From: a bacterium
Lineage (GTDB): Bacteria; Myxococcota; UBA727; JAUIJE01
Direction: 5' to 3'
Assembly (NCBI GenBank): GCA_030431455.1
Contig: JAUIJE010000010.1
Location: forward strand, 186,001 to 250,000
Length of the DNA: 64,000 nucleotides
The notes under the pieces were generated by a model that saw only the letters and a program-made list of their open reading frames with translations, was not told where the DNA came from and searched no databases. Below, piece by piece: positions 4,345 to 19,385 of this stretch. Positions within the stretch are counted from its first letter, which is position 1, and each line of letters opens with the position of its first letter. The position numbers and the translations under genes are program-made.

Positions 4345-5835
4345 TCACCGGGCGATGTCGTCACCGGGCGCGCTCACCACGACCTCGAAGAGGCCGAGCT
4401 TGTCCACCGCGTCCTTGTGCGCAGCCGCGTCCCCGACGAGCACCACCGTGAGCCCCTCGGTGGCCAAGGCGCGCTCGGCCGCGGCCTTGACGTCCTCTTT
4501 GGTCACCGCCTTGACCCCCTCGAGCAGCTTTTCGAAATGGTCCAGCGGCCGGCTGTACACAAACAGCTCGGTGGCGGCCTGGCCCATGGCCGAGATGGTC
4601 TCGAACTTGCCGGGCAGCGACTTGATGATGTTGTCCTTGGCCAGGGCCAGCTCTTGGTCGCTCACCTCGGTGGTGCGCATCTTGTCAAACTCCGCGAAGA
4701 ACTCCTTGACCGCGTCCGCGGTGTGGGGTGCAACCACATTGGCCCCGGCGATGAACGGTCCCGGACCATTGCGCGCGTCCACGAACGAGAACGCCCCGTA
4801 ACTCCAGGCCTTGTCTTCGCGCAGGTTCATGTTGAGGCGCGAGCTGAACATGCCGCCCAGCACTTGGTTCATCACGTCGAGCTTGATCTCGTCCGGGTCC
4901 CCGGCCGCGATCAGCGAGCGCCCGAGCCAGATCACGGTCTGGGGCGAACCCGGCGCGACCTGCACAAAATGGATCTTGGTCGTGGGCGGCTTGGGCGCGG
5001 CGGGGGCTTTGGGCCGCTTGGCCTTGCCCCGCCACTTGCCGAGCACCTTGTCCGCCAATGCCTGTGCATCTTCCAGGGTCACGTCCCCGGCGAACACCAG
5101 CGACGCGGCCTTGGGCCCGAAGTTCGACTTGAAGAACTTCTTCACGTCGTTGACGCTGATTTTGCCCACCGACGCCTCGGTGCCCGATCCCGGCTGGCCA
5201 TAGGGGTGGTCCTTGCCGTAGGCGACCTCCACCGCGGTCTCGGCCACCACCGCCCGGGGGTTGCCTTTTTGGGCCACCAGCCCGGCCAGCACCTGGCTCT
5301 TTTGCCGTTCAAACGCGTCCTTGGGGAAGCTCGGCTTCTGCACCACCGTCGACAAGAGCTCGAGACCGGCCTCGAGGTTGCGGCGCAACAGGCGCACCGA
5401 CACCACCCCGGCCTCGCGGTCGTTGCCCACCTGCAGGGTGGTGCCCAGCGCAGAGAACGCTTCGGCCAGCTCCACCGCGCTCATGTCCCCCGCGCCCTCG
5501 TCGAGCATCGCGTAGGTCATGTTCGCCAGGCCGGGCTTTTTGCCGTCGAGGGCCGAGCCCGAGGTGAGCACCACCCGCACATCGACGATGGGCAGGCTGT
5601 GCTCCTCGACCACCATCAGGGTGAGCCCGTTTTTGAGCTCGGCCTTTTGGAAGCCCGGCAATGTCACTTGACCAGGTTCGCCGGCCTGCGGCCGCTCCTT
5701 GCGGAACGGCTCGTCGGGGCCCTTGCGCAGCTTGACCTCGGGCTCGGTGGGCTTGGGCTCGGGGTCGCCCCCGCACGCGGTCAACGACAGCCCCAGGGCG
5801 ATCACGGCCCGCCACAGCAATTTGCGCGCGTTCAT
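4345..5835 (-). CDS. M16 family peptidase-like lipoprotein, non-catalytic subunit
   Basis: 496-residue lipoprotein (lipobox SLTACG, Cys21) with the two-lobe M16 fold. The N-terminal lobe is recognisable from LKNGLTLMVVEEHSLPIVDV, but the zinc site HxxEH is absent: the matching position reads MTYAMLDEG. M16 pairs commonly consist of one chain with the zinc site and one substrate-binding chain without it, and the gene immediately upstream encodes the HLFEH chain. Their 4-bp overlap (ATGA, 5832-5835) fits equal production of two subunits. The Tyr/Arg-rich half expected in the partner is present in the C-terminal lobe (SRPLDHFEKLLEG region). Probable periplasmic or outer-membrane-attached peptide-degrading complex. 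Confidence 0.85.
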   Translation of the reverse strand: MNARKLLWRAVIALGLSLTACGGDPEPKPTEPEVKLRKGPDEPFRKERPQAGEPGQVTLPGFQKAELKNGLTLMVVEEHSLPIVDVRVVLTSGSALDGKKPGLANMTYAMLDEGAGDMSAVELAEAFSALGTTLQVGNDREAGVVSVRLLRRNLEAGLELLSTVVQKPSFPKDAFERQKSQVLAGLVAQKGNPRAVVAETAVEVAYGKDHPYGQPGSGTEASVGKISVNDVKKFFKSNFGPKAASLVFAGDVTLEDAQALADKVLGKWRGKAKRPKAPAAPKPPTTKIHFVQVAPGSPQTVIWLGRSLIAAGDPDEIKLDVMNQVLGGMFSSRLNMNLREDKAWSYGAFSFVDARNGPGPFIAGANVVAPHTADAVKEFFAEFDKMRTTEVSDQELALAKDNIIKSLPGKFETISAMGQAATELFVYSRPLDHFEKLLEGVKAVTKEDVKAAAERALATEGLTVVLVGDAAAHKDAVDKLGLFEVVVSAPGDDIAR

Positions 5836-7451
5836 GAGGCACCCCCTTCCTCGGCTTTGCCCTCGGTGGGCGCGGCCTTGTCCTCGGCTCCATCCTTCTT
5901 GTCGTCGGCGGGCGCGGCCTCGGCTTTCTCCGCGGCGGCCTTTTCCGCGGCGGCTTTTTCCGCCGCCGCCTTCTCCGCGGCCGCGGCTTGTTCGGCCGCG
6001 AGCTCCTCGGGGGTCAGGGGCTGCACGATCATGATCGCGGCCTTGTCTCGGGCCAAAAAGCCCTTCACCGCTTCGCTGACTTTCTCCGGGGTCACCGCCC
6101 GGTAGCGCTCAAGGTCCTTCTGTAGGTAGTCGGGCTCGCCGAGGTAGTGGTTGTAGAGCTGGAGCTGCTCGGCCTTGCCCGAGAAGCCCCCGATTTTTTG
6201 CAGGCCGAACAAGCGCTCGGTCTCGAGGGCGTTGAGCGCGTTGGTGACCTTTTTCTGCTCAGGCGGAAGGTCGGACAGCTCCGCGAGGTAGGCGAACACC
6301 AGCTCCACTGTCTCGGTGGCGTCGACGTCCGGCTTCAGGGTGATGTCGATCTGGAACGTGGAGACGTTTTGGTTGGACGACTGGTAGGCGGACACCGATT
6401 GGGCCACCTGCTCCCCCTCGACCAACGCTTGGTACAGCGTCGAGGCTTTGCCCCGGGCCAAGATCTGCGCCACCACGTCGAGGGCCGCGTCACCCTCGGC
6501 GAAGAACGCGGGGGTCAGCCACATGATTTCGATTTTGGGCAGCTTGCCCACCCGCTCTTTGAACGTGAACGTGAAGCCCTTGTCCACCGTCGGGGGCGCG
6601 ACCTCCTTTTTGGCCGGCTTGTCCCAGGGGGGCAGGGTCCCGAAGTACTTCTCGATCGCCACCCGGGCGACCTTGGGGTCGAAGTCGCCGGCGAGGGTCA
6701 AGGTGGCGTTCGACGGGGCATAGTACGTATCGTAGAAGCCGCGCACGTCGTCGAGGGTGGCGGCGTCGAGGTCGGCCAGGCTCCCGATCACCATGCCATA
6801 GTAGGGGTGGGTCTTGGGGAACACCTTTTGCCACAGGGCCTCTTCGGCCATGCCGTAAGGCGCGTTCTCGATGCCCTGGAGGCGCTCGTTTTTGACCACC
6901 CCGCGCTGCTCGTCGAGCTTGGCCTGGGTCATGCCGTCCATCAGGTAGCCCATCCGGTCGGCTTCGAGCCACAACGCCAGCTCGAGCTCGTGGCTGGGCA
7001 CGACCTCGAAGTAGTTGGTGCGGTCCTCGTTGGTGGTGCCGTTGACCATGCCATTGCGCACCGAAGACCCGGCCTCCTCGAGGTACGCGATGTGTTTGTC
7101 CTCGCCGACGTTGGGCGTGCCCTGGAACATCAGGTGCTCGAAGAGGTGGGCAAACCCGGTCTTGCCCGCGGCCTCGTGAAAAGCGCCCACGTGGTACCAC
7201 ACGCTCACCGCCACGAACGGGGTGCGGTGGTCCTCGTGCAGGATGACCTCCAGGCCGTTTTTCAACGTGAAGCGTTCGTAGGGGATCGACAGCCCATCGT
7301 CCCCGCCGTCGGCGGCGGGCGCGTCGGCCGCCGGTGTGCCCTCGGCGGCGGGGGCCTCGGCGGCCTCGTCTTGGGCGAAGGCCAACCCCGGGGCCATCAA
7401 TGCGCACAGAATGGGCATGAGGCGGGGGGAGGAAGAGTTCGGCAGGGTCAT
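5832..7451 (-). CDS. M16 family zinc metallopeptidase, catalytic subunit
   Basis: 539-residue exported protease. An N-terminal signal peptide ends near LAFAQ (~27) and is followed by an Ala/Glu-rich linker. The catalytic inverzincin motif is HLFEH (His102, Glu105, His106) in GFAHLFEHLMFQGT, with the distal Glu expected in the NERLQG region. The last ~60 residues are a Lys/Ala/Glu tail with repeated EKAAAEKAAA units, which probably forms a charged helix. It is the first gene of a run with the non-catalytic M16 chain, methyltransferase, MBOAT and SGNH genes. Likely role: degradation of peptides or lipoprotein fragments in the envelope together with the partner chain. The Lys/Ala tail is unusual for the family. 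Confidence 0.9.
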   Translation of the reverse strand: MTLPNSSSPRLMPILCALMAPGLAFAQDEAAEAPAAEGTPAADAPAADGGDDGLSIPYERFTLKNGLEVILHEDHRTPFVAVSVWYHVGAFHEAAGKTGFAHLFEHLMFQGTPNVGEDKHIAYLEEAGSSVRNGMVNGTTNEDRTNYFEVVPSHELELALWLEADRMGYLMDGMTQAKLDEQRGVVKNERLQGIENAPYGMAEEALWQKVFPKTHPYYGMVIGSLADLDAATLDDVRGFYDTYYAPSNATLTLAGDFDPKVARVAIEKYFGTLPPWDKPAKKEVAPPTVDKGFTFTFKERVGKLPKIEIMWLTPAFFAEGDAALDVVAQILARGKASTLYQALVEGEQVAQSVSAYQSSNQNVSTFQIDITLKPDVDATETVELVFAYLAELSDLPPEQKKVTNALNALETERLFGLQKIGGFSGKAEQLQLYNHYLGEPDYLQKDLERYRAVTPEKVSEAVKGFLARDKAAIMIVQPLTPEELAAEQAAAAEKAAAEKAAAEKAAAEKAEAAPADDKKDGAEDKAAPTEGKAEEGGAS

Positions 7452-8171: not shown

Positions 8172-8407
8172 CGGTCCCTCCCGGGGTGGATGAAATTGCC
8201 CGTCAGGGGCGTCTAGCCGCGGGGGGCGCCCGGTTGGCCTGAAAGGCCTCTGAAACGGCCTCCCGGGCCGCCCGATCGGCGGGAATCAAGCGGTCCCGGG
8301 CTGGGTTTTGTAGGTTGTTCGTCGTGTCGATGCGCGCGACCGCCTTGTCCCCGCGTCGCTCACGGTTATGGGTGGAAGGTGTGTTCCGCTCGCTCTGGAG
8401 ACCGACC

Positions 8408-9817
8408 ATGCGCCTGATTGTTTTGTCTTTGACCGCCGCGCTGCTCTCGATTCCTGCCGCCGCCGGACCGGTGTGGCACGAAAACGCCAAGACCGACGCC
8501 CCGGTGGTGCAGCTGCCGTCCTTGTCCCCCCTCGTCGACAAGGTCGGCCCCGCGGTGCTCACCATCCACGTCGCGGGCACCGCCAACGCCAAGAGCCAGG
8601 AGCCGCTGTTCCGCGGGTTCGGGCTGGAGTTCGACACCCCGCCAATGCCCTTGGAAGGTCAGGGCAGCGGGTTCATCATCCACGAGGACGGCTATGCCCT
8701 GACCAACTTCCACGTGATCGAAAACGCGGAGACGATCAAGGTCATCGCCGGCTCCGGCCGCGAAGAGTTTGACGCCGAGGTGGTGGGCGCGGACAAAAAG
8801 ACCGACGTGGCCCTGATTCACATCAAGGCGGATCGCCGCTGGCCGTTCATCCCGCTGGGCGACTCTGACGCGCTCTCGGTGGGGGACTTCGTCGTCGCCA
8901 TCGGCAACCCGTTTGGTCTGTCGCAGACGGTCTCCACCGGCATCATCTCGGCCGAACACCGCCGCAACATCATGCCCTCGGGGCGCCAAGGCCTCTACGA
9001 CTTCCTGCAGACCGATGCCTCGATCAACCCCGGCAACTCCGGCGGCCCCCTCATCAATCTCAAAGGCGAAGCCATCGGCATCAACGCCGCGGTCAACCGC
9101 GCGGGCCAGGGCCTCGGCTTCGCCATCCCCATCAACCTCGTGAAGTCCCTGTTGCCCCAGCTCAAAGAGACCGGGCAGGTGTCGCGCAGCTGGATCGGCA
9201 TCAGCATCCAAGAGGTCACCGCCGAGCTCGCCCAGGGCTTCGGCCTCGACAAGCCCACCGGCGCCCTGGTCTCCGAGGTCATCCCCGGCTCCCCCGCGCA
9301 GGCCGGCGGCCTTCTGCCCGGCGACATTGTGACCCGGTTCGACGGGAAAAAAGTCGAGCAGTCCAGCGACCTGCCCCTGCTCGCGGCCCACGCCGGGGTG
9401 GGCAAGAAGGTCCCCCTCGACATTCGACGCGACGGGCGCGACATCCGCCTGTATGTGACATTGGGTGCGCTGCCCGAGGACGGCCGGATCGCGTCGGGCC
9501 CCGGGCCGGGCCAAGGCCGGATGCTCGACAGCGGCAAGCTCGGGGTGCGGGTGCGCACCCTCGACGACAACACCCGCCGCTCGCTGGGGCTGACCAACGG
9601 CGCGCCGGGGGCGTACGTGGCCGAGGTCGCGCCCGGCTCGGTGGCGCACAAGGCGGGCCTGCGCCAAGGTGACGTCATCATCGAGGTCAACAAACGCCCG
9701 GTGCGCAGCGCCCGGCAGTTCGTGCAGCAGGTGGAGCGGGTCCGCTCGGGCCGGTTGGTGCGCGTCCTGCTGTTGCGCGGCACCGCCACGGTGTTCATCC
9801 CCCTGGTCAAGCCCTGA
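8408..9817 (+). CDS. HtrA/DegP family S1C serine protease with two PDZ domains
   Basis: 469-residue periplasmic protease/chaperone. A signal peptide covers about residues 1-20. The trypsin-like catalytic triad is His102 (NFHVIE), Asp133 (KKTDVAL) and Ser211 (INPGNSGGP). Two PDZ domains follow, with carboxylate-binding and core blocks near SPAQAGGLLPGDIV and VAHKAGLRQGDVI. The family usually degrades misfolded envelope proteins. The ATG at 8408 is chosen because it begins the signal peptide and is preceded by GGAG; longer forms lack a signal peptide. It lies 65 bp upstream of the cyclic-nucleotide kinase gene on the same strand, so the two may share a transcript. The 236 bases before it (8172-8407) hold no convincing gene. 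Confidence 0.95.
   Translation: MRLIVLSLTAALLSIPAAAGPVWHENAKTDAPVVQLPSLSPLVDKVGPAVLTIHVAGTANAKSQEPLFRGFGLEFDTPPMPLEGQGSGFIIHEDGYALTNFHVIENAETIKVIAGSGREEFDAEVVGADKKTDVALIHIKADRRWPFIPLGDSDALSVGDFVVAIGNPFGLSQTVSTGIISAEHRRNIMPSGRQGLYDFLQTDASINPGNSGGPLINLKGEAIGINAAVNRAGQGLGFAIPINLVKSLLPQLKETGQVSRSWIGISIQEVTAELAQGFGLDKPTGALVSEVIPGSPAQAGGLLPGDIVTRFDGKKVEQSSDLPLLAAHAGVGKKVPLDIRRDGRDIRLYVTLGALPEDGRIASGPGPGQGRMLDSGKLGVRVRTLDDNTRRSLGLTNGAPGAYVAEVAPGSVAHKAGLRQGDVIIEVNKRPVRSARQFVQQVERVRSGRLVRVLLLRGTATVFIPLVKP
9451..9462 (+). repeat. dispersed 12-mer GTATGTGACATT, copy 2 (inverted)
   Basis: Inverted copy of AATGTCACATAC in htrA, read as TAT GTG ACA TTG. Four codons in a row here are ones the gene otherwise rarely uses. 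Confidence 0.45.
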
Positions 9818-9882
9818 GCCGGAGCCGGGGGGCGTGACCGGGGGCGCGGGCGGGCCGCCGAGGGGCCGGGTATAGTCGTGCT

Positions 9883-11280
9883 GTGAACGACCTCGAGTTC
9901 CTGCGCAGTCGAGAAATCTTTCGTGGGCTCTCGACCGATGAGCTGAAGAACCTGCTCTCGGTGATCGAAGAGGAGCGCTTCGCGCCCGGCGACACCATCG
10001 TGAAGCGGGGCGAGCCCGGCACCGCGATGTACCTGATCAAGCAGGGCTCGGCCGAGGTCGCGCTGCCCGCGGGCGATGACCGGCCGCGGTTTGTGGCCTT
10101 GCTCGGCCCGGGCGACATCTTCGGGGAGACCGCCCTGCTCACCGGTGAGCCCCGGGGGGGCGATGTCATCGCCACCGGCGACGTCGAGGTGGTGTGCAAG
10201 GTGTTCGACAAGGCCGTGGTCGACACCGTGATCAAAAACGCCCCCGCGGTGGCCCGGTTCCTCACCGAGGTGGTGGGCAAGCGGCTGCGCGAGTCCGGGT
10301 CCCTCGACCACGTGGGCAAGTACCGCATCCTCGGCGAGCTCGGGCGCGGGGGGGCGGCCATCGTGTTCGACGGGTTCCACCCCGGGCTCAACCGGCCGGT
10401 GGCGATCAAGATGCTCAACCACGCCCTGGTCCGGGAGGGCGACTTCCTCGAGCGCATCCAACGCGAAGCCCAGCTCATCGCCGACCTCGCCCACGAGAAC
10501 ATCGTGCAGGTGTTCGACACCGAGTCCGCCTACGCGACGTTCTTCATCGTGATGGAACGGCTCTGTGGCACCGAGCTGTCCACGCTGATCAAGCAGGGGC
10601 CGAGCGACGTCGACGAGGTTGTCCACGTCGTGCGCCAGACCGCCCGCGCTCTGCACTATGCCCACCAGCGCGGCGTCGTGCACAACGATGTCAAACCTTC
10701 GAACATCTTCATCGACGACACCGGCCGGGCCAAGCTCATGGACTTTGGCATCGCCGCCCCTCCCCAGAACACCGCGGGGGAGCCGCCCAAGGGCATCATG
10801 GGCACCCCCGGCTATCTCGCCCCCGAGCTGATGCTCGGCGGGGTCATCGACGGCCGGGCCGACCTCTACGGGCTCGGGGTGGTGGCCTACGAAATGTTAC
10901 TGGGAAAGTCCGCGTTCCCCACCGCCAACAAGGTCGAGGTCCTGCGGCGACAGCTGGTGCTCGACGGGCTCACCCTCCCCGAGCCCCTCCGATCTGCCCA
11001 CCCCGCCCTCACCGCGCTCATCCACCGCGCCACCCGGCAACGGCCCGAGGACCGCTTCGCCCACTGTGAAGAGCTGCTCGAGGCCCTCGACGAGCGAGGC
11101 GGCCCCTCCGCCCCCCTCGCCCCGGGCCGGCCGCCGGCCCCGGGGGGCCGGGCCTCGGCCACCCTCACGGTGTCTTTCGATCCCGCCCACCGCAACACCG
11201 TGAAAGCGCTGCTCGACGAGGCGGCGCGAAAGTTCGCCCATCTCGACGACGCGGACGCCACCGTGGCCGACGACGCCTGA
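9883..11280 (+). CDS. cyclic nucleotide-binding domain fused to Ser/Thr protein kinase
   Basis: 465-residue cytoplasmic kinase. Residues ~10-130 form a Crp-type cyclic-nucleotide-binding barrel, with the phosphate-binding cassette region at GDIFGETALLTGEPRGG. From residue 147 a Hanks-type kinase begins: glycine loop GELGRGGAAIVFDG, Lys in VAIKML, catalytic loop VVHNDVKPSN (Asp269), DFG in LMDFGIA and APE motif. The catalytic loop is HND rather than HRD, so this is a non-RD kinase and may not need activation-loop phosphorylation. The GTG at 9883 is the first possible start after an in-frame stop. The layout suggests direct control of a kinase by cAMP or cGMP, similar in principle to protein kinase G. 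Confidence 0.9.
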   Translation: MNDLEFLRSREIFRGLSTDELKNLLSVIEEERFAPGDTIVKRGEPGTAMYLIKQGSAEVALPAGDDRPRFVALLGPGDIFGETALLTGEPRGGDVIATGDVEVVCKVFDKAVVDTVIKNAPAVARFLTEVVGKRLRESGSLDHVGKYRILGELGRGGAAIVFDGFHPGLNRPVAIKMLNHALVREGDFLERIQREAQLIADLAHENIVQVFDTESAYATFFIVMERLCGTELSTLIKQGPSDVDEVVHVVRQTARALHYAHQRGVVHNDVKPSNIFIDDTGRAKLMDFGIAAPPQNTAGEPPKGIMGTPGYLAPELMLGGVIDGRADLYGLGVVAYEMLLGKSAFPTANKVEVLRRQLVLDGLTLPEPLRSAHPALTALIHRATRQRPEDRFAHCEELLEALDERGGPSAPLAPGRPPAPGGRASATLTVSFDPAHRNTVKALLDEAARKFAHLDDADATVADDA

Positions 11281-11802: not shown

Positions 11803-13662
11803 ATGACCCAGCGGACGTGGAACATCCTCGGCGCAGCTGTCGCCCTCCTCTTCATCGGCTTCATCGGCCTCAAGAACGGTTGCACCCGCAACACCAGCGG
11901 ACTGGCCGCCGACGTCGACGCCGAGACCCTCCTGCGCCAAGCCGGGTCCCCGCTTGGCAGCGCCAAACGCCGCGGGCTGAGCCCGGAAGAAGCGCAAGCG
12001 TTTGGGGTGTATTTCCTCGAGGTGGCCCAGGGCCGGCCCGCCACCCCCCCGGGGCGTTTGGTGGACAGCCCCGGGCTGCTCTACGTCGCCGCCCGGGACC
12101 ACGGCCGGCTCCTGGGCGAGACCTGGGCCACCGGCCGGACCCTCGACGACGGCGCGCAGAATGCGGTGAAGACCCTCCGGCAACGGCTCGGCGCCCGCTT
12201 CGCGGAGGTCAACGAATGGGAGGTGGACCTGCCCTACCGGTTCCGGGACTACGATCCCCAACGCCACCGGGGCCGCATCAACAACCGGCGCAAGGGCCTG
12301 GTCGGCATCGAGATGCTCTCGAGCGAACGCACCGCGCGGTTCGCCCCCACCTGGGCGGTGGCCCACAACGTCCACTTCCAACAGACCCTCGAGCAGTTCG
12401 CGGCGGTGCATTCCGTGGACGTGGATGCGCTGGGCGAGGCCCCTTACGTGGTGCGGACCTTCGACGCCGACCAGATCTTCATCGAGGCCGAGGGTCCGCG
12501 CGTCCACCTCATGTTCCGCGGCAATACCATTGTGCGCGACGAGGACATCACCCAGGCCAGCGTCACCGCCCTCGCCGACGCGATGGGGGGCTGGATGTTC
12601 AACAACCTCACCGACCAGGGCCGGCTCACCTATCTCTACGAGCCCAAAGACGAGACCGAGCCCGACCCCGTCCGCAAAAACAACATGATCCGGCAATGGA
12701 TGGGCACCGTGTGTCTGGTCCGCTGGGCTCTGCACAAAAAGGACCCCGCGCTGCTCGCCCGGGCCAAACAGAACATCGACTACAACCTCGCCCAGTTCTA
12801 CCGGGAGGACGGGGCCTACGGTTACATCGTGTTCAATGACATTTCGAAGCTCGGGGCCATCGCCCTGAGCGCGATCTCCTTGCTCGAGCACCCCGACGCC
12901 GGCGAACACAAGGCGAAGTTCGACGCGCTCGTGCGCAGCACCGACAAGTTGCTCAACCAGGAGACCGGCCGCTTCCAGACCTACTTCCGCCCCGACCGGG
13001 ACGGCACGTCCAACCTGCACAACTTCTACCCCGGCGAGACCCACCTGCTCTGGGCCCTGATGCTGCAACGCCAGCCCGACGCGGCCCGGCAAGCGCAGTT
13101 CCGCAAATCGTTCGAACACTACCGGCAATGGCATTTGGAACACCGGCGCCCCGCCTTCGTGCCTTGGCACGCCCAGGCCGATTATTTGATGTGGGAGCTG
13201 ACGAAGGACGACGCCTACAAAGACTTTGTGTTCCGGACCAACGACTGGCTCATCGACCAGATGCAGGACCCGGAATACAACCGCGCGCGGGGGGATGGGT
13301 TGTTCGACCACCTCGGCCGGTTCTACTCCGCGCGCAAGTCGGATTTTGGGCCCCCCCACAGCGCGTCCACCGGCGTGTACCTCGAGGGGCTCATCGATGC
13401 CTGGCGCTTGGCCAAAGCGGTGGGCGATGCCGACCACCAGGAGAAGTACCGGCGCGCCATCGTGCGGGGCCTGCGCAGCACGATGCAGCTCGCCTTCCTC
13501 GACAACGTGGACATGTACTACGTGACGGATCGGGACCGGCTGCGCGGCGGGGTCCGGGCCCGGGTCGACCGCAACCAGGTGCGGGTGGACAACGTGCAAC
13601 ACAACCTGATGGGCATCATCAAGATTCTGACTTACTTCGGACCGGAAGATTATCGTCCCTGA
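11803..13662 (+). CDS. predicted extracytoplasmic (alpha/alpha) barrel protein, 619 aa
   Basis: 619-residue protein with one N-terminal membrane segment (about 7-25, ending near LKNGC), so it is probably tethered outside the inner membrane. The second half is helical and rich in aromatic and His/Asp pairs at regular spacing (NFYPGETHLLWAL, PWHAQADYLMWEL, VYLEGLIDAWRLA, NVDMYYVTDRDRLRGG). This is the look of six-hairpin (alpha/alpha)6 glycosidases, lyases and epimerases. I cannot assign a specific family or substrate. It stands at the edge of the HTTM/membrane locus, and its last 44 bp overlap the end of the HTTM gene on the other strand. A role on a carbohydrate or lipid-linked sugar made by that locus is a guess. 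Confidence 0.6.
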   Translation: MTQRTWNILGAAVALLFIGFIGLKNGCTRNTSGLAADVDAETLLRQAGSPLGSAKRRGLSPEEAQAFGVYFLEVAQGRPATPPGRLVDSPGLLYVAARDHGRLLGETWATGRTLDDGAQNAVKTLRQRLGARFAEVNEWEVDLPYRFRDYDPQRHRGRINNRRKGLVGIEMLSSERTARFAPTWAVAHNVHFQQTLEQFAAVHSVDVDALGEAPYVVRTFDADQIFIEAEGPRVHLMFRGNTIVRDEDITQASVTALADAMGGWMFNNLTDQGRLTYLYEPKDETEPDPVRKNNMIRQWMGTVCLVRWALHKKDPALLARAKQNIDYNLAQFYREDGAYGYIVFNDISKLGAIALSAISLLEHPDAGEHKAKFDALVRSTDKLLNQETGRFQTYFRPDRDGTSNLHNFYPGETHLLWALMLQRQPDAARQAQFRKSFEHYRQWHLEHRRPAFVPWHAQADYLMWELTKDDAYKDFVFRTNDWLIDQMQDPEYNRARGDGLFDHLGRFYSARKSDFGPPHSASTGVYLEGLIDAWRLAKAVGDADHQEKYRRAIVRGLRSTMQLAFLDNVDMYYVTDRDRLRGGVRARVDRNQVRVDNVQHNLMGIIKILTYFGPEDYRP

Positions 13663-14503
13663 CCGCCCCCCCGGGCCACAGCCAGCGCAGGTCCTGCTCG
13701 TCGAGAAAACACAGGTACAGCACGCAGATGGTGGCCGAGAACGTCCCCACCGGCAGCGTCAGGTACAGGCCGAGGTGAAACAGCACGCCGAGGGGAATCA
13801 GCACCGGGCGGAGCCGGCGGTGCCACAGGCCGATGGCGAGGGAGAACTCCAGGGCCACAATGCCACTGCCCAGGAGCGCGAACACGATGCGCCACCCCCA
13901 GGCCTGGTCGAGAGGCCACCCCCCGCCCAGGGTGGTGGACATCAGGTGGTGGGCCACCCGGTCCCCGCGCAAGAATGTCCACTGCAGCTTGTCCCAGGCC
14001 CCGAACAGGTAACAAGAGGTCGCGATCAGGGCCAACATCCGCAGGCCCCAGTACGGCACCTCGACCCGGGGCGAACGCCCCCGCCGGGCCGCCCACCACG
14101 CGTCGACGCTCAGGGCATAGCCGCTGGCGGTGAGGGGCAAAAGCAGGCCGATGTAGAACAGCAACCAGGTGTGGTGGTGCCGCCAGTCATAGAACCCGAC
14201 GAGGACCCCCATGCCGAAGCCCATGGCCGCCACCGTGAGCGCGAGCAGCACCGTGCTCCAGCGGGTCAAGATGCCGAGGCCGACCAAAATGGTGGATAGC
14301 CAAAAAGCGAGACTGATCGCCAACCACCACGGATCGTCCCGCAACCGGTAGGGGCGCAATTCGCGCCCAAAGCGTGACCACAAAAGCGCCACGTAGAGCA
14401 CCCGAAACAGCGCCGGCAACCACGCCGGCCCCGTGCCGTACAGATGCCCGGTCACAAAGCGCCGCACCTTGGCCATCGCCCACCACAGGCGCGTGCCGAT
14501 CAC
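13619..14503 (-). CDS. HTTM domain (vitamin K carboxylase-like) membrane protein
   Basis: 294-residue multi-pass protein matching the HTTM region shared with vitamin K-dependent gamma-carboxylase. Recognisable blocks are the first helix pair (PAWLPALFRVLYVALLW), GVLVGFYDWRHHHTWLLFY, and SCYLFGAWDKL with following amphipathic helices. The GTG at 14503 overlaps the stop of the upstream 155-aa gene by 4 bp (GTGA); the ATG at 14476 is a shorter alternative. HTTM proteins are often encoded beside a small one-helix partner, as here. Biochemical function in bacteria is not established. It lacks the lumenal carboxylase domain of the animal enzyme, so carboxylation should not be assumed. Confidence 0.75.
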   Translation of the reverse strand: MIGTRLWWAMAKVRRFVTGHLYGTGPAWLPALFRVLYVALLWSRFGRELRPYRLRDDPWWLAISLAFWLSTILVGLGILTRWSTVLLALTVAAMGFGMGVLVGFYDWRHHHTWLLFYIGLLLPLTASGYALSVDAWWAARRGRSPRVEVPYWGLRMLALIATSCYLFGAWDKLQWTFLRGDRVAHHLMSTTLGGGWPLDQAWGWRIVFALLGSGIVALEFSLAIGLWHRRLRPVLIPLGVLFHLGLYLTLPVGTFSATICVLYLCFLDEQDLRWLWPGGAVRDDNLPVRSKSES

Positions 14504-14967
14504 CGAACGCTCCGCCGTGGCCCGCCCCGGCCCCCCTCGGGGGAGAGCGCCGCGCAGGCCTCGTCGCTGTGCACGACGTCGCGAAAACCGAGACGCAGGT
14601 CGGCGCAACGCAAGTGCACCGCGAGCCCGGCGGGGTGGGCCGCGCACAACCGGCGCAACAGGCGCTGGCCGTCGCGCCCCCGGCGCACCGCGGGGGTGAG
14701 GGGGAACAGCCGCGTTTGCGGGGGCATCTCGGCTTGCCAGTCGACCGCCGCCCCGGTGCGCGGGTCGTGCACGTCGAGCAGACAGACGTCGAGGCTCTTG
14801 CCGTCGTACATGCGCCATTCGAGCGCGGGCAAGCGGGAGATGTGCAGCACCTGCCGGCCGAAGGGGATCGCGAAGAACACCACCAGCATCCCGATGACCA
14901 GCCCCACCCGCCCCGGGCCCCCGATGAGGTCGGCCCAGGTCCACGTGGAGGGGGTAGGGCGCGGCAT
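14500..14967 (-). CDS. small membrane-anchored partner of the HTTM protein, 155 aa
   Basis: 155 residues: a short N-terminal cytoplasmic part, one membrane helix (about 20-40, GLVIGMLVVFFAIPFG) and a soluble domain with several Cys (DVCLLDV, RRLCAAH, HLRCADLRLG, HSDEAC). It begins 1 bp after the stop of the upstream multi-pass protein (TGACATG) and its own stop overlaps the start of the HTTM gene, so the three are certainly co-translated. Position and topology fit an extracytoplasmic domain working with HTTM. No independent family is recognised. Confidence 0.7.
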   Translation of the reverse strand: MPRPTPSTWTWADLIGGPGRVGLVIGMLVVFFAIPFGRQVLHISRLPALEWRMYDGKSLDVCLLDVHDPRTGAAVDWQAEMPPQTRLFPLTPAVRRGRDGQRLLRRLCAAHPAGLAVHLRCADLRLGFRDVVHSDEACAALSPEGGRGGPRRSVR

Positions 14968-14968
14968 G

Positions 14969-16663
14969 TCAGTCCCCGTCCGCGGGCGTGGTCTTGCGCG
15001 GCCACACCTCGGCCACCAACCACACCAGCATGAGCAGGAGGTACAGACACAAGCCCAGCGACGTGGTGGTGGTGACCACGTACCGCGAGGCGCGACCGAC
15101 CATGACCCCTTGGGTGACGACCTCGATCAAGAACAGCAACGCCAACATGCCCGCGTGCAGGCCCCGGCGCGGGCCGCGATCGCCGACGTGGAGCAGGATG
15201 AGGAGCAGGCGCAGGTTGTAGTAGTTGATTTGCGGCGTGGTCATCACAAACAGTGGATAGATGCCGAGCCAAATCAACGACCACACCTCGCGCCGGGTGC
15301 GCCACACGTACAGCGCAATGAGCAGAATCGAGATCACGCCGAGCACGCGCAGGGCGGTGTGCATCGACCACAACATCTCGATCTTGGTGTTGATGCCGCC
15401 CTCGGGCCCGCCGGTTTCGCCCCGGTACACCAGCGCGTCGCCGAGCCCCACGCGGTGCGAGCTGTAGCTGTCCGGGCCACCGTGCATCGAGAGGTTCTCC
15501 GCCGACTGCACGAACGCCTCGGGACCGACCGTCACCAACGCCCCGCCGCCAAACAGGGCCAAGCTGATGCCCACCCCGACGAGAAACCGTTTGTGTTCGA
15601 GGGTGAGCCACGGCTCGCCCCGCCCCCGCCGGCGCCACGCGTCGCGCACCATCCACACCACATAGGGAAAACCAAACACCGCGGGAAACACCCGGTTGAG
15701 CGCGGAATACGTGAGCAGCGCGCCGGCCCACCCGTGGCGGCCCTTTTTGAGCATGCACACCGCCACCACCAGCGCGCTCACCCAGTCAAACCGCAGCAAG
15801 CTCTGGCCCAGCACCGGCCACCGCCCGCTGAACGTGACCAAGAACCACAACAGCGAGAACAACAGCGCCTCGAAGCCAAACGCCCAGCCGATGCACAGCA
15901 TCGCGATCACCACCAGACCGAAGTCGATCATCGTGATCCACTTGACGTGCTCCACCGGACAGAGCCGCGCGAACGTCCCGCCCACCAGGGTCCACGACGG
16001 GGGCGGGTTGTACCCGTGGTCGTGAAAGAAGTAGTCCCACTTCGCCCGGCGGTTCTGGCTCGTCAGCCAGGTCACGTCGTGCACGAACCCGGCCCACCGC
16101 TCGTCGGTGAAGCGGCGCTTGACCTCGTCGGCCCGGGCCAAGGCATCGCGGCGGGGGAAGAACTTTTCGTAGCCCACCAGGTCGCGGTACTGGCGCACCC
16201 GCCTAAACCGGCCGGCGCCCTCGTCGTCGGCGATGAGCATCGCCTCGTACAGGCGGTAGTAGCCGAGCTCCTCGAAGTATTTGCTGTTCAGGTAGTAGTA
16301 GGTGACGTCGTTGTAGTCGCCGGCGGTCGAGATCACGCGCTTGTCGAACCAGAAGTAGTTGAACGCCCCGTATACACACGACGCCACCAACACCGCGTGC
16401 AGCCAGCGGCGCGCCGACGGCCACGCCGACTTTTCGCGGGGCGTCGACGGTCGCCGCCGCAAAAACCACCACACCCCCACCCACAACACGGCCACGCCCG
16501 CCAACCACATCCGGCCCTCGTGGCTGTCGCGCACCCCGATGCGGTCCTCGGTCAGGCACCACCCCAGCGTCGCCGCCGGCGGCACCGCCAAGGCCAGCCA
16601 CGCGGTCCACGATCGGGGAACATCATCACGGGGCGTGTCGGCGGGCTGCTCGTCAGTGGTCAT
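14969..16663 (-). CDS. multi-pass membrane protein, GT-C glycosyltransferase-like (paralog A)
   Basis: 564-residue protein with about ten membrane helices. A large loop after the second or third helix carries SKYFEELGY, and a second loop carries RFTDERWAGFVHD. Asp/Glu residues just after the second helix (NDVTYYYLN) and the overall layout resemble GT-C polyprenyl-phosphate sugar transferases, but no family signature is complete. It is homologous to the divergently transcribed gene starting at 16781: blocks match as SKYFEELGY/AKYFDELGY, ERWAGFVHD/ERWRAFEHD and LLRFDWVSALVVAVCMLKKG/FLRYDWVSCLLIAMALLKKG. Heads the operon with the 155-aa and HTTM genes. Confidence 0.65.
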   Translation of the reverse strand: MTTDEQPADTPRDDVPRSWTAWLALAVPPAATLGWCLTEDRIGVRDSHEGRMWLAGVAVLWVGVWWFLRRRPSTPREKSAWPSARRWLHAVLVASCVYGAFNYFWFDKRVISTAGDYNDVTYYYLNSKYFEELGYYRLYEAMLIADDEGAGRFRRVRQYRDLVGYEKFFPRRDALARADEVKRRFTDERWAGFVHDVTWLTSQNRRAKWDYFFHDHGYNPPPSWTLVGGTFARLCPVEHVKWITMIDFGLVVIAMLCIGWAFGFEALLFSLLWFLVTFSGRWPVLGQSLLRFDWVSALVVAVCMLKKGRHGWAGALLTYSALNRVFPAVFGFPYVVWMVRDAWRRRGRGEPWLTLEHKRFLVGVGISLALFGGGALVTVGPEAFVQSAENLSMHGGPDSYSSHRVGLGDALVYRGETGGPEGGINTKIEMLWSMHTALRVLGVISILLIALYVWRTRREVWSLIWLGIYPLFVMTTPQINYYNLRLLLILLHVGDRGPRRGLHAGMLALLFLIEVVTQGVMVGRASRYVVTTTTSLGLCLYLLLMLVWLVAEVWPRKTTPADGD

Positions 16664-16780
16664 GCCATGTCCATTCGCATCTCGAACGCCGCGCCGCGGC
16701 GTCGTCGCCGGCTACCAAGGGCCCGCGCCGATGAAAACGGGGCCATTTGCGTCCCCCCCGCGCCCGTCTATACCGAGGAC

Positions 16781-18331
16781 ATGGACTTTCTGGACTTCGA
16801 ACAGACCCGCGCGACGAGCGAAGCCATCAAAGTGGTCCTCGTGGCCGGGGCCATCGGGTTGGTGTGGGCGTGGCGACGCCTGTCGCCCACGCTCGCGACC
16901 CGGCTCCTCGTGGTGTTGGTGCTCGCCTCCGGCATCAACTACATGCGCTACAGCCCCAACGTGTTCCTCAAGCAGCTCGATGCCTACGACCTGGTGCACT
17001 ACTACCTGGGGGCCAAATATTTCGACGAGCTCGGCTACTTCGATCTCTACCCGGCGATGCTGCTCGTCGACGTCGAACATGGGCCCTACAACCGCAAGTC
17101 CCGCTTCTACCGCGCCCAAGACAAAGAACACGGCTACCGAGAGCGCACCCCCCTGTCCCACGCCCACCAACGCGGACGGGAGGTGCGCGACAAGCACTTC
17201 ACCCCGGAGCGGTGGCGCGCGTTCGAGCATGACTTCCTCGTCATCCAGCGCAACCACGGCCTCGGCGCGGGCCTCTGGAACACCCTGATCAACGACCGGG
17301 GCTTCAACGGCACGCCGGTGTGGCTGATGTTCGCGCGGCCCATCGCCAATGCCTTTCCCGTCGAGTGGATCAAAGCCCTGTGTTGGCTCGACGTCGCCCT
17401 CCTCACCCTCGCCTTGCTCGCGCTGGCCTGGGCCTACGGTCGCAACACCGCGCTGTTCGCGTTGCTGTTCTTGTTCCTCACCTATTCGTTGCGCTGGCCC
17501 TACGTGACCTGGGCGTTCTTACGCTACGACTGGGTGTCATGCCTGCTGATTGCCATGGCATTGCTCAAGAAGGGCAAGTTCCCCTTCGCGGGGGTGCTCA
17601 CCGGCTATGCCGCATTGGTGCGCCTGTTCCCCGCGGCGTGGATGTTCGGCCCGTTTATGCAGGGGGTGTTCGGTCTGTTTGACGGCAAAAAACCGTTCAA
17701 GGAGCGCATCAACAAAAAGCTGGTGCTGTTCGCGACCGGCTTTGTCCTCTGCGTGGGCCTGCTCGAGGGCGCGGCGATCGGGATCTTTGGCATGGACGCG
17801 GTCCGGACCCACGCCCACAACATCACCGAGCACATCAAGCCCGAGGAGCTGTCGTCGAGACGCGTCGGGTTCGCCCTCGCCTACTCCTATCATGGCAAGC
17901 AGACCCCGAAGAACCTCGCCCCCGAGCGCAAAATCCAGATCAAGCACGAGAGCGGGAGCCGCACGTTCTTGGCCGCGCTCCTCTTGATCGCCCTCGGCTA
18001 CGCGGCCCGCAAAAAGCGCCCCGACGAGAGCTTCGCCCTGGGCGCGATCCCGTTCTTCATGTTGTCGACGGCCAGCTACTACTACTACGTCTGCCGCATC
18101 ACCCTCATCGCGTGGCACGCCAGCGACCTCGACAAACACCGCAACCGGGTGGGGCTGACCATCTTGCTCGGCATCGAGCTGTTCACCAATTTGGTGCAGT
18201 CATCGATGCCGGGCTACCGGGTGTTCCTCATCGGCTACATGTCGTGGGCGCTGCTCGGGTATTGCATCTGGCTGACCTTCGCGCTCCTGGGCGAGTCCCG
18301 GGGCGCCCCCGACGACGACGAGACCAACTGA
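16781..18331 (+). CDS. multi-pass membrane protein, GT-C glycosyltransferase-like (paralog B)
   Basis: 516-residue multi-pass protein, paralog of the gene ending at 14969. Shared features are an early helix, a loop with DLVHYYLGAKYFDELGY, the HFTPERWRAFEHD loop, a pore-like middle (RWPYVTWAFLRYDWVS) and a late YYYYVCRITLIAWHASD helix. The ATG at 16781 is preceded by GAGG. The frame is open far upstream, but those codons lie inside the opposite-strand paralog and read as non-protein, so they are excluded. The two paralogs are transcribed away from each other from a 117-bp spacer (16664-16780), which should hold both promoters. Likely a transferase using a lipid-linked donor; substrate unknown. 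Confidence 0.65.
   Translation: MDFLDFEQTRATSEAIKVVLVAGAIGLVWAWRRLSPTLATRLLVVLVLASGINYMRYSPNVFLKQLDAYDLVHYYLGAKYFDELGYFDLYPAMLLVDVEHGPYNRKSRFYRAQDKEHGYRERTPLSHAHQRGREVRDKHFTPERWRAFEHDFLVIQRNHGLGAGLWNTLINDRGFNGTPVWLMFARPIANAFPVEWIKALCWLDVALLTLALLALAWAYGRNTALFALLFLFLTYSLRWPYVTWAFLRYDWVSCLLIAMALLKKGKFPFAGVLTGYAALVRLFPAAWMFGPFMQGVFGLFDGKKPFKERINKKLVLFATGFVLCVGLLEGAAIGIFGMDAVRTHAHNITEHIKPEELSSRRVGFALAYSYHGKQTPKNLAPERKIQIKHESGSRTFLAALLLIALGYAARKKRPDESFALGAIPFFMLSTASYYYYVCRITLIAWHASDLDKHRNRVGLTILLGIELFTNLVQSSMPGYRVFLIGYMSWALLGYCIWLTFALLGESRGAPDDDETN

Positions 18332-18389: not shown

Positions 18390-19385
<996 letters not shown>

Follow-up and report, generated by a model that had tools for sequence, protein, structure and literature searches.

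A five-gene locus at positions 11,803 to 18,331 of a 64,000-nucleotide stretch of DNA (the window) from a bacterium of the Myxococcota (lineage JAUIJE01; contig JAUIJE010000010.1 of assembly GCA_030431455.1) encodes two homologous membrane proteins, P0004 and P0005, whose sequences and predicted fold support their being glycosyltransferase C (GT-C) enzymes of a new family. In the best explanation that we can offer, to which we give a probability of about one half, the locus serves to modify an envelope glycan: the GT-C pair would use a polyprenyl-phosphate-linked pentofuranose as donor, an exported barrel protein (P0001) would act on the same glycan, and a small Cys protein (P0003) would form a separate pair with an HTTM protein. 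The locus is laid out as follows.

11803..13662, plus strand: barrel gene, encoding P0001 (619 aa), exported and N-terminally anchored, with a predicted AMMECR1-like domain and a predicted (alpha/alpha)6 barrel
13619..14503, minus strand: HTTM gene (294 aa, GTG start; Pfam PF05090)
14500..14967, minus strand: gene of the Cys protein P0003 (155 aa), with one hydrophobic helix and four conserved Cys; the HTTM partner
14969..16663, minus strand: gene of P0004 (564 aa), a predicted type A GT-C glycosyltransferase with D119-x3-Y123, R324 and H394
16664..16780, no strand: divergent spacer of 117 bp between both GT-C genes
16781..18331, plus strand: gene of P0005 (516 aa), a predicted type B GT-C glycosyltransferase, 32% identical to P0004 and placed in the type B clade, with relatives at 42-55% identity

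This layout agrees with the original prediction, which had been made from the letters of the DNA alone. The two genes that it described as homologous and as diverging from a 117-bp spacer were confirmed as such (BLASTP E 6e-51, the identity of 32% extending over 467 columns), and so was the tight joining of the minus-strand paralog to the genes of the Cys protein and HTTM: the P0003 gene lies 1 bp downstream of the P0004 gene on the same strand, and it overlaps the HTTM gene by 4 bp at the GTG start of the latter. P0003 is, as described, a one-helix Cys-rich protein of 155 aa, the HTTM assignment holds with a PF05090 match above the curated cut-off (E 2.6e-10), and the exported six-hairpin-like protein at the other end indeed carries an N-terminal hydrophobic anchor and a predicted (alpha/alpha)6 barrel. 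Absent from the earlier description was a 44-bp overlap between the convergent barrel and HTTM genes. A sigma-70 promoter scan of the 117-bp spacer found no sigma-70-like site. Among the locus proteins HTTM alone was recognised by Pfam, and NCBIfam gave no match above cut-off to any of them. The frame of P0005 stays open for ~2.3 kb further upstream (14444-18331, plus strand), antisense to P0004; this extension is a high-GC (guanine plus cytosine) shadow frame and no gene.

The assignment of P0004 and P0005 draws on a predicted structure and on conserved residues. Using AlphaFold2 with 55 sequences, a model of P0004 was built that reached a predicted local distance difference test score (pLDDT) of 92.3 and a predicted template modelling score (pTM) of 0.92. 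When this model was compared with the PDB by Foldseek, the first nine matches were chains of PimE, ALG9, PIG-U, ArnT and ALG6, that is, GT-C enzymes or the GT-C-fold protein PIG-U, followed by unrelated proteins, and the top match was PimE (E 2.4e-3, probability 1.0, target-normalised template modelling score (TM) 0.56). Among 55 family members Y123 is invariant (55/55), the position of D119 holds D in 50, E in four and N in one, H394 is found in all 55 and R324 in 54. In the model, D119 lies within a short helix (117-128) that comes after helix 75-103. PimE requires D58, at the tip of its first juxtamembrane helix, and Y62, and it binds the phosphate of the carrier through K195 and H322 (PMC12041525). 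The D119/Y123 spacing of P0004 equals that of D58/Y62 (D-x3-Y), and R324 and H394 may be the counterparts of K195 and H322, with which they are equated by order along the chain only. PimE, a polyprenyl-phosphomannose-dependent member of GT87, is thus like P0004 in offering the best solved fold, the D-x3-Y at a juxtamembrane helix and a conserved His plus a basic residue that could hold phosphate, and P0004 is unlike PimE in its 12% identity in the structural alignment, its extra N-terminal helices and its failure to match the GT87 model.

In sequence comparisons, the Pfam model of GT87 was weakly matched by six of the 55 relatives (best 1.6e-5) and that of PIG-U by two (0.0078); GT87 membership (PF09594) was rejected for P0004 and P0005, neither of which matches the model. 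No transporter family was matched by either paralog by sequence, and the PDB sequence matches of P0004 (a chitin-binding protein and others) were dismissed as being at chance level. The predicted fold, the catalytic residues and the weak GT87 matches of the relatives together support the GT-C-like character first proposed for the paralogs, which would then almost certainly transfer a sugar from a lipid carrier to an acceptor lying beyond the cell membrane.

Judged by sequence, the P0004/P0005 family is large, widespread and without a Pfam or NCBIfam name. A five-sequence profile detected it in 33 of the 195 genomes of the phylum, and 409 GT-C relatives were collected in a scan of one genome-contig collection, in which P0005 alone as query gave no matches. 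The neighbourhoods of the best 80 of these 409 relatives' loci were read; they came mostly from Myxococcota and other 'deltaproteobacterial' metagenome-assembled genomes (MAGs), with some from Hydrogenedentota and Acidobacteriota. In a midpoint-rooted FastTree tree the type A clade, which is well supported, includes P0004, and the type B clade includes P0005. By our reading of this tree, type B is also present in seven of the 10 other type A genomes, from which we conclude that the duplication is old and that both copies tend to be retained; type B is frequently found alone. The genome from which the window comes (the host genome, 7.7 Mb) holds three family members, namely P0004, P0005 and a divergent third paralog on contig C18. 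Two further arrangements were seen in the relatives' loci: a tandem pair of GT-C family genes with a 4-bp overlap (L069:1622-4902), and a conserved gene of ~500 aa, PlsB-like by eye, downstream of the type A GT-C gene (L058, L059, L062 and L063).

The barrel protein is the partner that recurs beside these enzymes. Homologs of P0001 adjoin a GT-C family gene in eight of the 80 distant loci (L057, L082, L089, L090, L093, L096, L109 and L129): in L082 and L090 the GT-C stop overlaps the barrel start by 4 bp, in L089, L093 and L096 the two genes are divergent, and in L057 they are separated by three genes. Only generic kinases and shadow frames were commoner than the barrel cluster among the neighbouring gene families that the window also has. 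Because the barrel family is rare, occurring in just 17 of the 195 phylum genomes, its adjacency to GT-C is far above chance, and the data support a recurring barrel-GT-C link. P0001 itself bears an N-terminal hydrophobic anchor, and most of its homologs appear from their sequences to start with a lipoprotein-type signal. Its model, made from nine sequences (pLDDT 77), is an (alpha/alpha)6 barrel with a GH76 mannanase as the nearest fold (Foldseek 1.0e-5), and the N-terminal domain matched 1zq7, which we take to be an AMMECR1-family structure, at probability 1.0 and TM 0.54; at the level of sequence, a profile match on 1wsc reached E 2.8 and Pfam gave no AMMECR1 match. E412, D502, E528 and D596, which are invariant among the nine barrel sequences, are candidate catalytic residues. 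The barrel fold is held in common with the GH76 alpha-1,6-mannanases and the GH127 beta-L-arabinofuranosidases, from both of which P0001 differs by its extra, predicted AMMECR1-like domain. GH76 was rejected for P0001 on the grounds that the nine sequences contain no conserved adjacent acidic pair and that Pfam GH76 was matched by one member at 0.11. GH127 enzymes (PF07944) have a conserved Cys/Zn active site, and this family was rejected since the barrel has no conserved Cys column; its model was weakly matched by three of the nine barrel members (best 6e-4). The host genome carries a second barrel copy (G000:C2:317754-319349; L021:8752-10671), 46% identical and without GT-C or HTTM neighbours.

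With respect to the sugar, a cassette in a distant locus and donor genes elsewhere in the host genome point to polyprenyl-phosphate-pentofuranose, perhaps with arabinose as the sugar, as the leading, though unproven, donor. In the cassette (L057, from an Omnitrophica-labelled MAG contig), genes for the barrel protein, a UbiA protein, a flavin adenine dinucleotide (FAD) oxidase, a short-chain dehydrogenase/reductase (SDR) and a type A GT-C lie in this order on one strand; in comparison with solved structures, the UbiA protein matches decaprenyl-phosphate phosphoribosyltransferase (8e-35) and the FAD oxidase matches DprE1 (9e-75), and the SDR is assigned as DprE2 from its position and its family. 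The host genome encodes a HAD-UbiA fusion (L010:1903-3363; PF12710 1.2e-9, PF01040 2.2e-21), which together with a DprE2-like SDR (L010:1903-4329; 48% to the L057 SDR) lies ~4 kb from the third GT-C paralog (8246-10063) on G000:C18, and a DprE1 on contig C16 (1e-95 to 4aut). Both the L057 cassette and the host donor genes therefore support the lipid-linked sugar that the original prediction had offered as an example, and it is the identity of the sugar that we infer. A DprE1 subclass with 38-43% identity to the L057 protein was found in 22 of 33 GT-C-family genomes versus three of 162 others, a co-occurrence to which we give little weight because the class boundary was set post hoc and a single bacterial family predominates.

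This arrangement has counterparts among known systems. In the three-component extracytoplasmic pentofuranose addition of Citrobacter youngae O1/O2 (GT136; Kelly et al. 2024, PMC11127046), a HAD-UbiA fusion making polyprenyl-phosphate ribose has been proven to feed a GT-C outside the membrane for ribofuranose addition, and optional DprE1/E2 homologs mark the arabinofuranose versions. All of these parts are in the host genome, and most lie together in L057; unlike in C. youngae, the host GT-C belongs to a putatively different, unannotated family, none of the donor genes is linked to the window, and there is an additional exported partner, the AMMECR1-barrel protein. The mycobacterial arabinan pathway (Rv3806c, DprE1/DprE2, AftA/AftB; PMC12041299) likewise has a GT-C final step, and the L057 and host donor genes are homologous to its UbiA protein Rv3806c and to DprE1. 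Mycobacteria differ in having another cell envelope and a separate phosphatase where the host has a HAD fusion, and P0004 matches the fold of AftA far more weakly (E 1.7) than that of PimE.

On the pentofuranose reading, the type A and type B enzymes would take the sugar from a polyprenyl-monophosphate carrier on the outer side of the inner membrane and transfer it onto an exported acceptor, with D119 serving as the base, Y123 orienting D119, and R324 and H394 holding the carrier phosphate. The donor would be ribofuranose made by the HAD-UbiA fusion and epimerised to arabinofuranose by DprE1/DprE2, all encoded elsewhere in the host genome. The anchored AMMECR1-barrel protein would act on the same glycan by trimming, transfer or epimerisation, and the Cys protein and HTTM would constitute a separate membrane enzyme pair, probably quinol-using, that may sometimes serve the same substrate.

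Two further loci, L076 and L022, support a separate, conserved pairing of the Cys protein with HTTM: in both, P0003 homologs with the same four Cys lie directly upstream of HTTM, with a 4-bp overlap in L022. P0003 has its hydrophobic helix at residues 23-41 and its cysteines at C62, C108, C121 and C138, all four kept in two homologs, and a third-position GC of ~0.9-1.0 over almost the entire gene indicates that it is coding despite its Arg-rich C-terminus. A four-sequence HTTM profile matched structures of GGCX, the vitamin K-dependent gamma-carboxylase (E 3.3e-7), over the HTTM part only, and in the alignment, from which the numbering was worked out, HTTM K172 pairs with GGCX K218 and H111 with H160. 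K218 is the active base of GGCX, and H160A compromises carboxylation (PMC12589487). The window HTTM is thus like GGCX in having an HTTM domain with the K218/H160 equivalents, and unlike it in size (294 vs 758 aa) and in being without the propeptide-binding and luminal domains; the remote HTTM member in L209 is without the His. Retention of these two equivalents is the sole gain for the quinone-dependent modification suggested at the outset. SdpA/SdpB resemble P0003 and HTTM as a gene pair of a small one-helix protein and an HTTM protein, and sdpABC and yitPOM provide the precedent for a small protein with SdpB (PMC6818787). SdpB itself (TIGR04033) was rejected for HTTM, at 14.7 bits against a cut-off of 178.4, and no toxin or Gla (gamma-carboxyglutamate) substrate gene was recognised. 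HTTM adjoins GT-C in three of 54 GT-C genomes, which are that of the window, G169 (L209, with a small protein, HTTM and GT-C in tandem) and G196 (L076), whereas ~0.1 would be expected by chance by our estimate; an HTTM-GT-C link is therefore likely, though an occasional one. An HTTM gene lies ~3 kb from a DprE1-like gene at G200:C3:36368-40725.

A joint five-gene system, as the original prediction proposed, was not borne out: the co-occurrence analysis found no other locus with all five genes, and a conserved system was rejected with GT-C, barrel and HTTM lying mostly in different genomes (58 to 195 phylum genomes searched). The conserved units are pairs, barrel with GT-C and small protein with HTTM (in the window, L076 and L022), and occasionally HTTM with GT-C, so the window locus brings two recurring units together locally and is not a conserved system, although its five genes might act together. 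It appears very unlikely that the GT-C pair, the exported barrel protein and the Cys protein/HTTM pair make up a single membrane machine whose HTTM component, carboxylase-like and driven by quinol, chemically alters what the GT-C enzymes transfer, be it the sugar or its lipid-linked form; if they did, a glycan would be oxidised or carboxylated in a quinol-dependent way, and we know of no HTTM reaction like it.

Several observations weigh against the envelope-glycan reading with its pentofuranose donor. The Foldseek E-values for P0004 are modest, so the sequence evidence matters, and the confidence of the P0001 barrel model is moderate. The donor genes are absent from the window and lie beside the GT-C family at one other locus only, none being found beside GT-C genes in 39 phylum neighbourhoods; the third host paralog, near the donor genes, has lost the D-x3-Y. 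DprE1 is not detectable in six of 21 GT-C genomes, and it is present in 119 of the 195 phylum genomes regardless of GT-C. Finally, all five genes occur together in no other genome searched, in a sample from which the window's own bacterial family is absent.

The same GT-C mechanism could run on a hexose donor (polyprenyl-phosphate mannose, glucose or galactose; cf. PimE and the Gtr systems), the host arabinose genes then serving another polymer, and this is favoured by the mannosyltransferase PimE being the best fold match, the weak family matches to GT87, the nearness of the barrel to GH76 alpha-mannanases and the six genomes in which DprE1 was not seen. GT-C folds are common to hexose and pentose enzymes, so the fold cannot decide the donor; the L057 cassette, which holds all donor genes between barrel and GT-C, and the donor genes near the third host paralog argue against a hexose, which we regard as rather unlikely. 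That the genes are chance neighbours, a GT-C/barrel glycosylation unit beside an unrelated SdpA/SdpB-like pair engaged in peptide maturation or another quinol-driven reaction, concerns the HTTM pair, is compatible with either donor and is a serious possibility that falls somewhat short of even odds. It accords with the sdp and yit precedent, with the small-protein/HTTM pair found without any GT-C in L022 (G039) and with the small number of GT-C genomes that have HTTM alongside; it is opposed by the three independent HTTM-GT-C arrangements, so far above expectation, and by the tight joining of three genes on one strand in the window. Least probable of all is that the paralogs have the GT-C fold and are non-enzymes, like PIG-U, a non-catalytic subunit binding a lipid-linked substrate: PIG-U figures among the best fold matches, and its Pfam model is weakly matched by two relatives, but the D-x3-Y pair, the His and the Arg are conserved across 55 diverse members.

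Around the locus, the gene just upstream of the barrel gene (9883-11280, plus strand) encodes a cNMP-binding (cyclic nucleoside monophosphate) domain fused to a Ser/Thr protein kinase domain, and further ahead lie genes for an HtrA-like, trypsin-like protease with PDZ domains (8315-9817, plus strand) and for an M16 peptidase (5832-7451, minus strand). Beside P0005, the gene at 18390-19385 (minus strand) encodes a secreted protein with a Gly-Asp repeat of ~70 residues, and further proteins encoded by the host genome (L010, L138) contain similar repeats. This D/G-repeat lipoprotein was rejected as a sixth member of the locus: its non-repeat part matched itself alone, with no homolog among the relatives' loci examined, and the other matches came from the repeat.

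The HTTM pair, with its carboxylase residues intact, offers a small and genetically defined case for the study of bacterial HTTM function. A GT-C family of several hundred members, unnamed in Pfam and NCBIfam, now becomes testable through a mutable catalytic pair, a likely donor class and a conserved exported partner, which may act on the product. If the pentofuranose reading is true, many Myxococcota would also have envelope glycans of the arabinofuranose type, for which mycobacteria and a few O antigens are the best-known sources.

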